From Pseudoalteromonas sp. EB27 (lineage in GTDB: Bacteria > Pseudomonadota > Gammaproteobacteria > Enterobacterales > Alteromonadaceae), in assembly GCF_001974875.1 (NCBI RefSeq), contig NZ_MTQD01000009.1, positions 124,001 to 188,000 of the forward strand: a stretch of DNA of 64,000 bases, read 5' to 3'. Below the pieces are notes generated by a model that saw nothing but the letters and a program-made list of their open reading frames with translations, was not told the DNA's origin and ran no database searches. This document shows positions 6,111 through 29,560 of this stretch, piece after piece. A program made the translations under genes and the position numbers. Position 1 is the stretch's first letter, and the number at the start of each line of letters is the position of its first letter.

Positions 6111-6153
6111 TATACGTTGAGCTTGCTCACGTCGGAAGTGAAGCTTCTAATTA
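6111..6153 (+). repeat. REP sequence beside the RAYT gene
   Basis: A copy of the REP family found at 6.7-8.7 kb (GAGCTTGCTCACG...GAAGCTTCTAATTA) overlapping the 3' end of the RAYT gene. With the array at 6662 onward, it places REP sequences on both sides of the transposase. The first tetranucleotide has drifted (ATAC). Confidence 0.8.
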
Positions 6154-6612
6154 CATAGACTCATGATCAAAAAGATAAACACAATCCCAAAATGGATACT
6201 CCTCAGCTTTATTCACAAGCTCAGCGCGTAAAGGGTTAGCGATTATATAACGTGCTTGGTTAATTAAATCATCTTCTGCTCTAAGCTGGTGCTCAAAATA
6301 GTTTTGCTGCCAAATTTGCCCATTAGAACAATTAAACTTATTAATGTTCACCGTGGTAATACTTTTATATTGCCTTACAACGTCAGTAAGAGGTAAATCT
6401 TTCAATTGAAACAACCAATGGAGATGATCTGGCATTAGGGTATAGCAGATTGTATTCACCTTATTTTGCATATAAACCAAACCTCTTGTGGCAATACATG
6501 CATTTTCAAAGCTCTTAAATAACGGAGTTCTTTGTTTTGTGCATATTGTTACAGAGTAAAATTTATTTTTTGAAGAGTGACGTCCTGTTAATAGCTTTTT
6601 AGAGGAATACAT
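6151..6612 (-). CDS. REP-associated tyrosine transposase (RAYT)
   Basis: A Y1 HUH-type transposase of the IS200-like superfamily, 153 residues. The HxH metal motif is in MPDHLHWLF, and the catalytic tyrosine is in QQNYFEHQLR. The C-terminal YIIANPLRAELVNKAEEYPFWDC block is diagnostic of REP-associated members rather than true IS200/IS605 transposases. RAYTs are known to bind and nick REP hairpins that start with GTAG. Here the gene is flanked by such repeats on both sides, which supports the assignment. The active-site residues are intact, so it could still act on the repeats in trans. Confidence 0.92.
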   Translation of the reverse strand: MYSSKKLLTGRHSSKNKFYSVTICTKQRTPLFKSFENACIATRGLVYMQNKVNTICYTLMPDHLHWLFQLKDLPLTDVVRQYKSITTVNINKFNCSNGQIWQQNYFEHQLRAEDDLINQARYIIANPLRAELVNKAEEYPFWDCVYLFDHESM

Positions 6613-6661
6613 AAAGATTTTAATTTTTTGGTTTTTATAAATATAGATAAAATGTGTTATA

Positions 6662-6968
6662 CGACAAGTTAAATCAAACCACGGCGTTAAGTTTTGTGGT
6701 AGGCGTAGAGCTTGCTCACGCGAGAAGCGCAGCTTCTAATTACTCAACCACCTATAGTAAAAGCGTTGCTTTTAAACGCCAGCAAGCTGCACGTCTACAA
6801 GTTAAATCAAACCACAGTGTCAAGTTTTGTGGTAGGCGTAGAGCTTGCTCACGCGAGAAGCGCAGCTTCTAATTGCTCAATCACCTATTGTAAAAGCGTT
6901 GCTTTTAAACGCCAGCAAGCAGCGCGTCTACAAGTTAAATCAAACCACAGTGTCAAGTTTTGTGGTAG
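6662..6968. repeat. REP/BIME array, left of the IS110 element
   Basis: Alternating inverted REPs. Type A (GTAGGCGTAGAGCTTGCTCA... AGAAGCGCAGCTTCT) occurs at 6699 and 6829. Type B, on the other strand (GTAGACG... AGCTTGCTGGCG), ends at 6798 and about 6931. Both begin with GTAG and fold into hairpins, as RAYT substrates do. The spacer AAGTTAAATCAAACCACAG recurs between units. Open frames that run through this array are repeat artefacts. Confidence 0.9.
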
Positions 6969-7002
6969 ATACCATCTCTCATTTTAAGCTTCAAGGTCGT
7001 AT

Positions 7003-7986
7003 TTAACTTTCTTGAAGCTTAAACGCTTCTTGGTTTTTTATTACACCAAAACATATATGAATTAGCTTTCGCATATTTGCACACACAGCTTGCATCGGTG
7101 TTTTACCATTATTTATTAACGTTAACTTGTGTCTCTTTATTGTTTTATTCCATTGCCCAGCAACAATCGCCGCCATATAAAGTTTGCATCGAATTCTGGC
7201 TGGCCCAAGTTTACTGATTGACGTTCGCCCTTTTAATTTACCCGATTCATTATGCCGTGGAATTAATCCGCAATAAGCTGCCGCTTCTTTGGCTTTATTA
7301 AATTTTTTAGCCGCAAACAAATACGTCAGCTCTCTCGATAATACGGGTCCAATGCCAGGGATAGACTCAAGTAGTTTTCTGTTTCTTTTTAAATCAGGTT
7401 CATTATCTATGTGGTTATCAATGTCAGATTTAAGCTGTTTAATTTCATCGTCTAAAAACGCGATAGTCACTTTTATCGATTGGCAAACACGTGCTGAAAC
7501 GCTACTGAATTCACTTGCTTCTAATCGGTTAGCTTCTCGTTGTCGGTTACTCTCAAGCGCATCTAAACGACGAATAAGGGCTTTAAGCTCTCTAATTGCT
7601 AACGCTTCAGGTTGCCAATAATTAACGACTGCGTGCTTGGCACAGCCATAATGAGCAAGCATCGTTGCATCAGATTTGTCTGTTTTGTGAATTATGTTTA
7701 AAGCGTCTGCATACTTTTTAGCTTTACCTGGATTCGCTAAAATAATTTTAAAGCCTTGCTCGTGTAAAAAATACATCAGTGCTTCATGATAAACACCCGT
7801 TGGTTCGAGAGTGATAACGAGCTCATTAGCAGCGCTTTTTGTTGTATTTAAAAGCCATTTTTCTATTGCTAAAAAGTCTTGATGCTTGTTTTTAAAGACT
7901 TTTGTTTTAATCTTGTTTGTAAGCTGGTCTCTCAACCACGATAAATCAATTTTCTCTTTACTAATATCAATGCCGATAAACATCAT
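7003..7986 (-). CDS. IS110-family DEDD transposase/recombinase
   Basis: 327 residues. The RuvC-like N-terminal half has the DEDD residues: D in IGIDISK, E in TLEPTGVY, and D...D in HKTDKSDA. The C-terminal Transposase_20 half has IPGIGPVLS, where family members carry the catalytic serine, and AAAYCGLIPR. It is full-length and has no frameshift. In this family the enzyme works with a bridge RNA that pairs with both target and donor DNA. The long non-coding region lies 5' of the gene, which is the IS110-subgroup arrangement rather than IS1111. Confidence 0.95.
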   Translation of the reverse strand: MMFIGIDISKEKIDLSWLRDQLTNKIKTKVFKNKHQDFLAIEKWLLNTTKSAANELVITLEPTGVYHEALMYFLHEQGFKIILANPGKAKKYADALNIIHKTDKSDATMLAHYGCAKHAVVNYWQPEALAIRELKALIRRLDALESNRQREANRLEASEFSSVSARVCQSIKVTIAFLDDEIKQLKSDIDNHIDNEPDLKRNRKLLESIPGIGPVLSRELTYLFAAKKFNKAKEAAAYCGLIPRHNESGKLKGRTSISKLGPARIRCKLYMAAIVAGQWNKTIKRHKLTLINNGKTPMQAVCANMRKLIHICFGVIKNQEAFKLQES

Positions 7987-7994
7987 CTCTACTT

Positions 7995-8160
7995 ACTCCC
8001 CTTGTACATACAGCATCTACTTAAATAAAATCGTGCTTGGATACCATTCAGTTTGTGAGAATAGAAAGTCAGGGCTTTATCTACGGCGCAGTATTAAATA
8101 CTAGGCGTAAAGGCAAGCTCACTGACTTCGATGTGATAAATGATAGCTAATCATTTATCA
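7995..8160 (-). ncRNA. Predicted bridge RNA of the IS110 element
   Basis: On the minus strand a 5' hairpin has a perfect 10 bp stem (8151-8160 / 8134-8143). A loop follows, closed by AAGTCAG/CTGACTT (8122-8128 / 8066-8072). It contains a left target guide TTTACGCCT (8103-8111), hairpin AGTATTTAATACT (8090-8102) and right target guide ending GTAG (8081-8087). A second loop has a donor guide ATGGTATCC (8039-8047), an AGCA/TGCT stem, and TACAAG (8001-8006). The target guides match the REP at the insertion point (TACGCCTA; CTAC). The donor guides match the element's own ends (ATGGTATCT; CTTGTA). The exact 5' and 3' ends are my estimate. Confidence 0.82.
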
Positions 8161-8174
8161 ATGAGAGATACAAG

Positions 8175-8690
8175 GCGTAGAGCTTGCTCACGCGAGAAGC
8201 GCAGCTTCTAATTACTTTGTATATATAGGAGTAATTGTATGTGTGGTTTGAATTTTGTAAAAGCGTTGCTTTTAAACGCCAGCAAGCTGCACGTCTACAA
8301 GTTAAATCAAACCACAGTGTCAAGTTTTGTGGTAGGCGCAGAGCTTGCTCACGCGAGAAGCGTAGCTTCTAATTACTTTGTATATATAGGAGTCAATTTA
8401 TGTGTGGTTTAATAATTTTTGTAAAAGCGTTGCTTTTAAACGCCAGCAAGCTGCACGTCTACAAGTTAAATCAAACCACAGTGTCAAGTTTTGTGGTAGG
8501 CGTTGAGCTTGCTCACGCGAGAAGCGTAGCTTCTAATTGCTCAATCACCTATTGTAAAAGCGTTGCTTTTAAACGCCAGCAAGCAGCGCGTCTACAGGTG
8601 TTTTAACCCAAGTTTAAGAGTATGCCTTGTAGACGTTGAGCTTGCTCACGTAAGAAGCGAAGCTTCTCATTGTATTTATTATTTTATTCC
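8175..8690. repeat. REP/BIME array, right of the IS110 element
   Basis: This continues the interrupted array: type A REPs starting near 8175, 8329, 8496 and 8627, alternating with inverted type B REPs (AAAAGCGTTGCTTTTAAACG... GTCTAC) near 8259, 8421 and 8553. A spacer TTTGTATATATAGGAGT occurs twice. The open frames in it (for example 8400-8606) are repeat-derived and are not called. Confidence 0.9.
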
Positions 8691-14275: not shown

Positions 14276-14400
14276 GTAGGCGTTAGTTTATCTCGCGCTT
14301 TAACTTGTAGGCGCAGAGCTTGCTCGCGCGAAAAGCGAAGCTTTTAAACTTCGGTGTAATTAATGTGTAGGTGCGATTTTATATCGCGCTCATAAATTGG
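14276..14400 (+). repeat. Three REP-like units
   Basis: GTAGGCGTTAGTTTATCTCG (14278), GTAGGCGCAGAGCTTGCTCG (14308) and GTAGGTGCGATTTTATATCG (14371) each begin with GTAG and contain a short hairpin. The last belongs to a second subfamily seen again, inverted, at 31.8 and 35.2-35.4 kb. Confidence 0.8.
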
Positions 14401-14451: not shown

Positions 14452-14694
14452 ATCGCGTTGGCGATGGCAACCAAAGGGCGGCTGCCACCGACTGCCCTTT
14501 GGAATCCCACGGCGCACCCGAGGATCACACTTTATCTTCAACTTACGTTAATGATGTGAACGTAACCAGCGTAGATAGGCCATCCATGGCCAAGCTACGC
14601 TTTGTACAGCATCCATGCTGTAAATTACTCATCATTAAGTAAGTTTCAGGTGTGATCACGGGGAATTGGAGTGTGTTGGTAGATTGGTGTTTAT
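14452..14694 (+). repeat. Structured repeat R1, left border of module 1
   Basis: A ~240 bp multi-hairpin element. The outer arms GGATCACAC (near 14522) and GTGTGATCAC (14650-14659) face each other. Inside are GGCCATCCATGGCC and ACAGCATCCATGCTGT, both near-perfect palindromes, and an AACGTAACCAGCGTAGAT segment. The flank CACGGGGAATTGGAGTGTGT through TTGGTGTTTAT is shared base for base with R2. There is no coding sequence. Confidence 0.88.
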
Positions 14695-22276: not shown

Positions 22277-22469
22277 GGAATCCCACGGTGCACCGGAGGA
22301 TCACACTGTGTCTTCAACTTACTTTAATGATGTGAACGTAACCAGCGTAGATAGGCCATCCATGGCCTATCTACGCTTTGTACAGCTCCATTCTGTTAAT
22401 CACTCATCGTTACGATCGTTTCAGGTATGATCACGGGGAATTGGAGTGTGTTGGTAGATTGGTGTTTAT
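22274..22469 (+). repeat. Structured repeat R2, between modules 1 and 2
   Basis: A direct copy of R1 from TTTGGAATCCCACGG to TTGGTGTTTAT, with several substitutions, including a perfect GTAGAT...ATCTAC stem around GGCCATCCATGGCC. It abuts the truncated methyltransferase on the left. On the right it ends about 118 bases before the first gene of module 2, whose promoter must lie within or just after it. Confidence 0.9.
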
Positions 22470-29204: not shown

Positions 29205-29343
29205 CTAAACAACTACAAAATAATAAGACGATGAATCATACCAGGCCTTATTTATCCTATAAAGTTTTATATAGGATAAATTGAGCGACCGACCAAAATA
29301 ACAGCTAATAATTGGAAATTAAAGACTGCTGCTAAGAAAACCT

Positions 29344-29560
29344 CCCCGTGATCACACCCGAAATTAAATGAATGATGAGTAATTAACAGCATGGATGCTG
29401 TTAAAAGCGTAGCTTGGCCATGGATGGCCTATTTACGCTAGTTACGTTCATATCATTAATTTAAATTGAGGAGATAGTGTGATCCTTGGGGCGCCGTGGG
29501 GTTCCAAGGGCGGTCGGCGGTATCCGCCCCTTGGTTGCCATCGCCAACGCGATATAAGTA
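29344..29560 (-). repeat. Structured repeat R3, inverted
   Basis: The reverse of R1: CCCCGTGATCACACC, CAGCATGGATGCTG, GGCCATGGATGGCC, then GTGTGATCC, GGTTCCAAGG and TTGCCATCGCCAACGCGATA. With R1 it brackets both modules as inverted repeats. No gene is present in 29205-30446; that stretch is R3, R4, R5 and three REPs (near 29570, 29870 and 30298). Confidence 0.88.

Follow-up and report, generated by a model that had tools for sequence, protein, structure and literature searches.

The element and its insertion site

The window, by which we mean the whole stretch of 64,000 nucleotides analysed, carries on its minus strand an IS110 element of 1204 bp between two cores (6969 to 8172, left end at 8172 and right end at 6969), and the core CT (AG on the plus strand) bounds it at 6967-6968 and 8173-8174. 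Its recombinase gene (7003 to 7986, minus strand; 327 amino acids) contains the DEDD_Tnp_IS110 domain (PF01548, 81.3 bits) and the Transposase_20 domain (PF02371, 69.4 bits), and scores 189.9 bits against a cut-off of 140 for the NCBIfam model NF033542, 'IS110 family RNA-guided transposase'. The best PDB match of the recombinase is IS621 (8wt6, E=5.4e-43), and at E <= 0.001 its relatives of solved structure comprise two distinct sequences, IS621 and ISCro4, the latter also of the IS110 family (PDB 9t56, E=4.5e-42 over residues 2-322) and compared by its recombinase. Residues D7, E61, D103, D106 and S248 align with the IS621 active site, reported as D11, E60, D102, D105 and S241 (PMC11208158), and are invariant across the 12 sequences of alignment A1. 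By Pfam and alignment together the protein has the DEDD RuvC-type domain and the Transposase_20 domain with catalytic serine that mark the IS110 group, and the 186 nt of noncoding DNA upstream of the gene (7987-8172) as against 34 nt downstream (6969-7002) is the layout of that group. In IS1111 elements the long non-coding region lies downstream of the transposase and not upstream as in the IS110 group.

The element interrupts a REP/BIME array (6624 to 8672) with direct repeats D1-D4 and GTAG-tagged REP heads, which is adjoined by a gene for a REP-associated tyrosine transposase, or RAYT (6151 to 6612, minus strand; Y1_Tnp, and 120.1 bits to NCBIfam NF047646, cut-off 80). Palindromic repeats, a GTAG at one end and a RAYT gene nearby are what define a GTAG REP with its RAYT (PMC3733652). 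With the element taken out and its flanks joined, 79 of 80 bases agree with an intact sister REP unit in this array, which thus represents an empty site. When the orthologous RAYT-REP-ABC-F locus was compared in five other genomes the element was absent at all five, and an empty site was found at two of them (L110 and L111, joined flanks matching at 76/80), the other three matching at only 49-56 of 80 bases in arrays without an equal REP unit.

The element went in at the foot of a REP hairpin, splitting the complement of GTAG into its two halves. On one side lie the left target TCTACGC and core CT (8173 to 8181, minus strand), in the 3' arm and foot of the hairpin GCGTGAGC..GCTCtACGC, and on the other the core CT with the right target AC (6965 to 6968, minus strand), complementary to the REP GTAG tag as judged by sequence and by the tag in the sister units; the REP foot used as target is TCTACGCCTAC. 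The first-pass annotation of this DNA had named an IS110 element with CT cores at both boundaries and a REP as its target, and all three statements are borne out, the first by Pfam, NCBIfam and the IS621 structure match, the second by the positions found and the third by the empty sites in the sister unit and the orthologous loci.

The GTAGGCGC variant of the GTAG-tagged REP head also occurs singly outside the array, at 14307, 29887, 30320, 31732, 32957 and 35256. Matches to the Rfam TwoAYGGAY RNA (RF01731) above the gathering score lie at 14507-14671 (minus strand, 78.4 bits), 22319-22405 (minus, 44.8 bits) and 29333-29499 (plus, 65.3 bits), all three between open reading frames of 150 aa or more.

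The predicted bridge RNA and its guides

A bridge RNA gene is predicted within the upstream region (7995 to 8166, minus strand, both ends approximate) from covariation and from a model, R1. Folded as a single sequence the 186 nt come out modestly above shuffles (z = -2.5), and it is on covariation, not on this fold, that the structural evidence for the RNA rests. Across 24 left ends 96.4% of pair cells are standard and 32 of 35 pairs have two-sided compensatory changes, the consensus structure being derived from the same 24-sequence alignment that was scored; no shuffle in 500 was as high, and slid controls were 32-50% paired (at most 50.2%). The covariation supports a 5' hairpin (8134 to 8160, minus strand; helix 1, 9 of 10 pairs compensated), a target-binding loop with outer stem, apical hairpin and guides (8065 to 8129, minus strand; helices 2 and 3, 16 of 17 pairs compensated) and a donor-loop stem, and so extends to the 5' stem-loop, target loop and donor loop of an IS621-type RNA, short of the donor-loop base. 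Model R1, trained on the 5' portions of 20 left ends including the window's, has a single match in the window, at this locus. Rfam at gathering thresholds gave no bridge-RNA match in the window, and may hold no such family.

All guides are read on the minus strand, as is the bridge RNA. The left target guide TTTACGCCTA (8111-8102) faces the target TCTACGCCTA, and over t1-t8 (TTTACGCC, 8104 to 8111, minus strand) it matches the target TCTACGCC at seven of eight positions, the one mismatch being at t2. The right target guide GTAG (8081 to 8084, minus strand) pairs with CTAC, and an AT at 8079-8080 (minus strand) occupies the handshake-guide position of the target loop. In the donor loop the left guide ATGGTATC (8040 to 8047, minus strand) is identical to the right end ..ATGGTATC, with CC where the donor core is CT, the right guide TACAAG (8001 to 8006, minus strand) pairs with CTTGTA of the left end, and a GG at 7999-8000 (minus strand) takes the handshake-guide position. 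The guides are therefore complementary to both strands of target and donor, core included, as in IS621; across relatives, some left guides have a base other than the core T at position 9. Pairing between t7 and the first handshake base of the donor loop is seen in 46 of 48 elements, among them L033, L039 and L070, where t7 is other than C, and is missing in L007 and L032. The target guides fitting the two sides of the insertion point and the donor guides fitting the element ends are those that had been read by eye from this one sequence, and the 5' hairpin and two guide loops read in the same way are borne out by the covariation.

Guides and targets across relatives

Relatives were taken from 6 of 108 genomes of the same genus (E <= 1e-60), from 7 of 394 genomes of the same order (E <= 1e-80) and from named genomes, where 42 of the best 80 of 202 loci were used, chosen by hand before their guides were read (the rest being partial, near contig ends or more distant). 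These 42 and 16 same-genus or same-order loci make 58, from which ten were dropped, L016, L021, L029, L037 and L047 as duplicates and L017, L022, L034, L042 and L060 as too short or lacking the CTTGTATC anchor, to leave 48 left ends with 38 distinct guide loops; L012, broken by six stops, was unused. Loci were anchored on CTTGTATC and GATGGTATC, so that the conservation of the core is partly by construction. A register for the left guide taken from a MAFFT alignment was abandoned, being off by one for most sequences (mean 3.35 matches, cognate target best in 6 of 34), and was replaced by a shift-tolerant match in which non-cognate pairs were given the same freedom.

Matched in this way over t1-t8, 17 of the 38 loops fit their own left target at 8/8, 16 at 7/8 and three at 6/8, the misses being L062 (5/8) and L058 (3/8). 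At least 7/8 is thus reached by 33 of 38 loops, against 4.3% of non-cognate pairs, so that the agreement of the guides with the junction, already judged strong from the window alone, is above chance. The match sum of 274 compares with a maximum of 210 in 200,000 permutations, a figure that overstates the evidence because the relatives are not independent. When the whole left end was scanned, the best match to the target lay within the guide loop and nowhere else for 36 of the 38.

A second set of 31 rows gave 8/8 in six, 7/8 in 14, 6/8 in seven, 5/8 in three and 2/8 in one, so that 20 of 31 rows reach at least 7/8 against 0.9% of non-cognate pairs; here the L196 row duplicates its neighbour L188, one genome can contribute several rows, some of the guides had already occurred in the first set, and these sequences were in view when the loop landmark was defined, the non-cognate pairs again having the same freedom. 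The set excludes L187, with an unclear boundary, and L161, L162, L164 and L168, where the contig end cuts off the guide in whole or in part; what can be read of it fits the target in L161, L162 and L168. The first-pass annotation had let its reading hang on other copies sitting where their guides point, and this holds for most copies in both sets and fails for L137 (2/8) and L058 (3/8), with L062, L128, L193 and L198 at 5/8 departing less far.

The notion that guides are tuned to the repeats of each host was only partly borne out by genome-wide word counts in seven genomes: TACGCCTAC has 45 matches in the window's genome against 16 for the reversed word and AGCGCCTAC 65 against 6, whereas TTCGCCTAC in G028 has 60 against 65. 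Congeners share words, and so no clean diagonal of guide and host appears. Relatives in viral contigs were not found with the patterns used, and phage records gave only distant ones, at 35% identity or less among the 10 listed of 18 matches.

Natural retargeting in the closest clade

The closest clade has recombinases 95-98.5% identical to that of the window, its closest named members are from Pseudoalteromonas, and its sites differ between genomes. Further left ends of the clade lack a readable recombinase; those for which identity to the window's left end is stated show 94-98%, and one of the group, L163, was picked up by model R1. In 19 left ends seven left guides occur (TTTACGCC, TCAGCGCC, TGTGCGCC, TGTGCGTC, TTTGCGCC, TTTGCGTC and TTTACGTC), the only known occurrences of TTTGCGTC being left ends of G086 and that of TTTACGTC the remnant L130. 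At t4, guides with A sit at A in five of five cases and guides with G at G in 12 of 13 (p=0.0007), one further site having neither base, and at t7 guides with C sit at C in nine of nine and guides with T at T in seven of ten (p=0.003). The test was made without L120 and L123, which repeat L115 and L116, and without the remnant L124/L131, whose guide TCGACGTC at TCAACGAC fits at 6/8 and agrees at t4 and not at t7.

Several guide versions can share a host. One replicon of Pseudoalteromonas sp. CuT4-3 carries TTTGCGCC twice and TGTGCGTC once, each with its target at 7/8; G086 carries three versions; and Gayadomonas joobiniege, a more distant host, has one element in two versions, CCGACC at AGCCGACCT and CCAACC at TGCCAACCT. 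The BIME contains two REPs facing opposite ways, GTAGGCG and GTAGACG, to which the GCC and GTC feet correspond. Judged from these sequences, the guide versions of close relatives, at least seven in number, mostly follow REP variants. If the mechanism is as for IS621, the guides TCAGCGCC and TGTGCGTC would be expected to redirect the element to GCGCCTAC and GCGTCTAC feet. A natural redirection has been described between ISEc11 and ISXne4, with transposases 72% identical (PMC11187229); the present clade differs in changing its guides among recombinases at least 95% identical, in step with REP variants. It is a dense natural series of guide changes in which quite how bridge-RNA guides change in nature could be tested, and also how the recombinase avoids acting on the gene of its own guide.

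Transposition route and alternatives

A promoter is predicted at the junction of an excised circle. Its −35 like box TTGAAG lies at 6989 to 6994 (minus strand), and its −10, TATCTT, forms only when 6967-6971 joins 8172. The TTGnnn-17-TATCTT arrangement is found at the join of right and left ends in 28 of 30 distinct right ends (TATCCT in L054) and not in L038 and L050; TATCTT is also donor sequence, giving its conservation two possible reasons, and the conserved promoter thus speaks for transcription of the RNA indirectly. The element would excise as a circle, and the joined right end, core CT and left end would complete TTGAAG-17-TATCTT and so transcribe the bridge RNA. By analogy with IS621 this RNA would bind the DEDD/serine recombinase, its donor loop would pair with the circle junction and its target loop with the REP hairpin foot and CTAC, and strands would be exchanged at CT.

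Overall we put at about 0.95 the probability that this is a full-length IS621-type IS110 element transposing by bridge-RNA-guided recombination. Established here are the boundaries, the REP target, the RNA structure by covariation and the matching of guides to targets, including in close relatives where the two change together, and it is the structure and the matching that uphold the original bridge RNA reading. The mechanism itself is published, shown by experiment for IS621 (PMC11208160), and the element is an ordinary one; its clade is a clear natural example of guide retargeting. As described for IS621 of E. coli (PMC11208160, PMC11208158), it has an upstream bridge RNA, predicted here, with 5' stem-loop, target loop and donor loop, an 11-bp target NNNNNNN-CT-AC in a REP (that of IS621 being ATCAGGCCTAC, drawn as ATCAGGC-CT-AC in the published scheme, PMC11208160), a CT core, a right guide pairing with CTAC, a promoter at the junction of right and left ends (again predicted) and DEDD and serine active-site residues. 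It differs in its diverged recombinase, its left guide TTTACGCC, its host and REP family, and a predicted −10 that spans the core itself. Looser likenesses, by description, are to ISPpu9, ISPpu10 and ISPa11, which also insert in REPs (PMC1525189), and to the seekRNA elements, ISPa11 among them, with RNA-guided choice of target (PMC11187229); IS492 of Pseudoalteromonas is likewise of the IS110 family and comes from the genus of the closest named relatives.

The window copy could now be an inactive fossil of a bridge-RNA element that inserted once, an account compatible with a bridge-RNA origin and unlikely in our view. A transposase search found one copy in the window's genome at E <= 1e-60, and the t2 mismatch to its own target points the same way, yet the reading frame is intact, the active-site residues, the RNA, both ends and the predicted junction promoter are kept, and the relatives at 95-98.5% identity occupy different sites in other genomes.

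Far less probable is that the protein or the REP hairpin picks the target and that the guide match comes from captured flanks or from short words shared by REPs. In a fold-based test five or more of seven bases are indeed paired in 31 of 44 left targets, a level that control stretches reach in 6 of 28 cases (Fisher p=8e-5), with only 19 of the 44 targets beating their own shuffles at p<0.05; in the window's own target 6/7 bases pair, which at that single site does not exceed shuffles (p=0.19). When 44 left targets were examined for REP hairpins with strict ungapped arms of 7 nt, 22 reached p<0.05 and that of the window (4/7, p=0.96), whose hairpin contains a bulge, was missed. Also on the side of this account, the left guide region is short, and related REPs share ACGCC and GCGCC words. 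Against it, guides track targets across unrelated REP families, targets that do not fold as hairpin feet still fit their guides (L033 at 8/8, L032 at 7/8), close relatives occupy different REP variants according to guide, non-cognate pairs reach the 7/8 level at just the low rates given above, and guiding by RNA has been shown by experiment for IS621 of this family (PMC11208160).

Guiding in trans by the bridge RNA of another element with the same donor ends would be helped by donor ends near identical across sub-families, by the left ends of a second sub-family in the window's own genome and by one mismatched copy in G086, and is nevertheless very improbable for the window copy, whose own guide explains its site at 7/8. 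The second-sub-family left ends, L002 and L003, with guide ACCCAACC, lie at the end of contig C15 and the start of C3 in the window's genome (G000) and are probably one repeat split by assembly. The mismatched copy, L137 (G086:C96:22268-22347), has a window-type left end whose guide is TTTGCGTC; it sits at ACCCAACC, which the second sub-family co-resident in G086 (L165-L167) has as its target, and fits at 2/8 at best shift and 1/8 in fixed register; it may possibly have been cross-mobilised in trans, and it lies at a contig end in a fragmented assembly. L128 (5/8) and L141 and L144 (6/8 each), all in G086, show a tolerance of mismatches.

Remnants, and the right guide as a REP tag

Solo left ends turned up among the left ends of the genus and of the CuT4-3 replicon. 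At three loci the left end stops before the transposase and away from a contig end, each cut at an internal CT followed by AC: L124/L131, one locus in two genomes, breaks exactly at the guide (CGACGT-CT-ACAAGTC), L130 at AAAGCC-CT-ACAACAT and L153 at ACTTT-CT-ACATACC. The right flanks of L124/L131 and L130, set beside intact arrays, read as beginning at an apparent REP foot, which is the expected right boundary. That of L153 is gene interior, with a left flank foreign to that gene in seven homologues compared, and so a larger rearrangement was involved. Possibly these are abortive excisions by the recombinase, one of them by self-targeting at the guide; the events are few, three in all, and two of the breakpoints lie off the guide. 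Directly after the guide, the guide gene has retained CT in 31 of 38 elements and shows CTAC in none of 38, a pattern that may be simply structural.

The right guide is GTAG in 47 of 48 left ends, and the right target CTAC in 37 of 40. REPs typically end in GTAG, and a recombinant E. coli RAYT cleaves a GTAG motif (PMC3733652), so the near-invariant right guide is the REP tag cleaved by RAYTs, which is the less expected finding. The words GTAG, RAYT and self-target are absent from the main text of PMC11208160, and a shallow search, with subscription literature poorly covered, found no published link between the IS110 right guide and the RAYT tag. The clade connects two mobile systems, IS110 and RAYT/REP, and since insertion splits the tag the REP concerned should be immobilised. 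A tentative extension, which as a whole we think rather unlikely, makes the clade a specialised parasite of REPs, its right guide fixed on the RAYT tag GTAG/CTAC and its left guide drifting after REP stems, with the short right target serving in a PAM-like way to tell true targets from the guide's own gene, and a failure of this discrimination leaving solo left-end remnants in which the guide gene, or another CT of the left end, is joined to the right junction. Two observations count against a pure REP explanation: CTAC is present in the targets of L032 and L033 even though these do not fold as hairpin feet, and a GTAG guide is retained in L050 and L054, which sit at CTGC and CCAC. Extended pairing of the right guide beyond CTAC (positions 12-16) was not significant (p 0.055-0.085).

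Guide and target can depart from the tag together. In Psychrobacter piscatorii (L096) the right guide is AAGAG and the right target CTCTT, and in G127 the right guide is GGGAGAG in four copies, with CTCTCCC at the single readable right end, that of a fifth copy, L017, the contig of which does not reach as far as its right guide. The G127 copies (L185, L193, L195, L197, L198 and L017) sit at another C-rich sequence, with left flanks CCCCTCACCC...CCCT and CTCTCCCC at the one readable right end.
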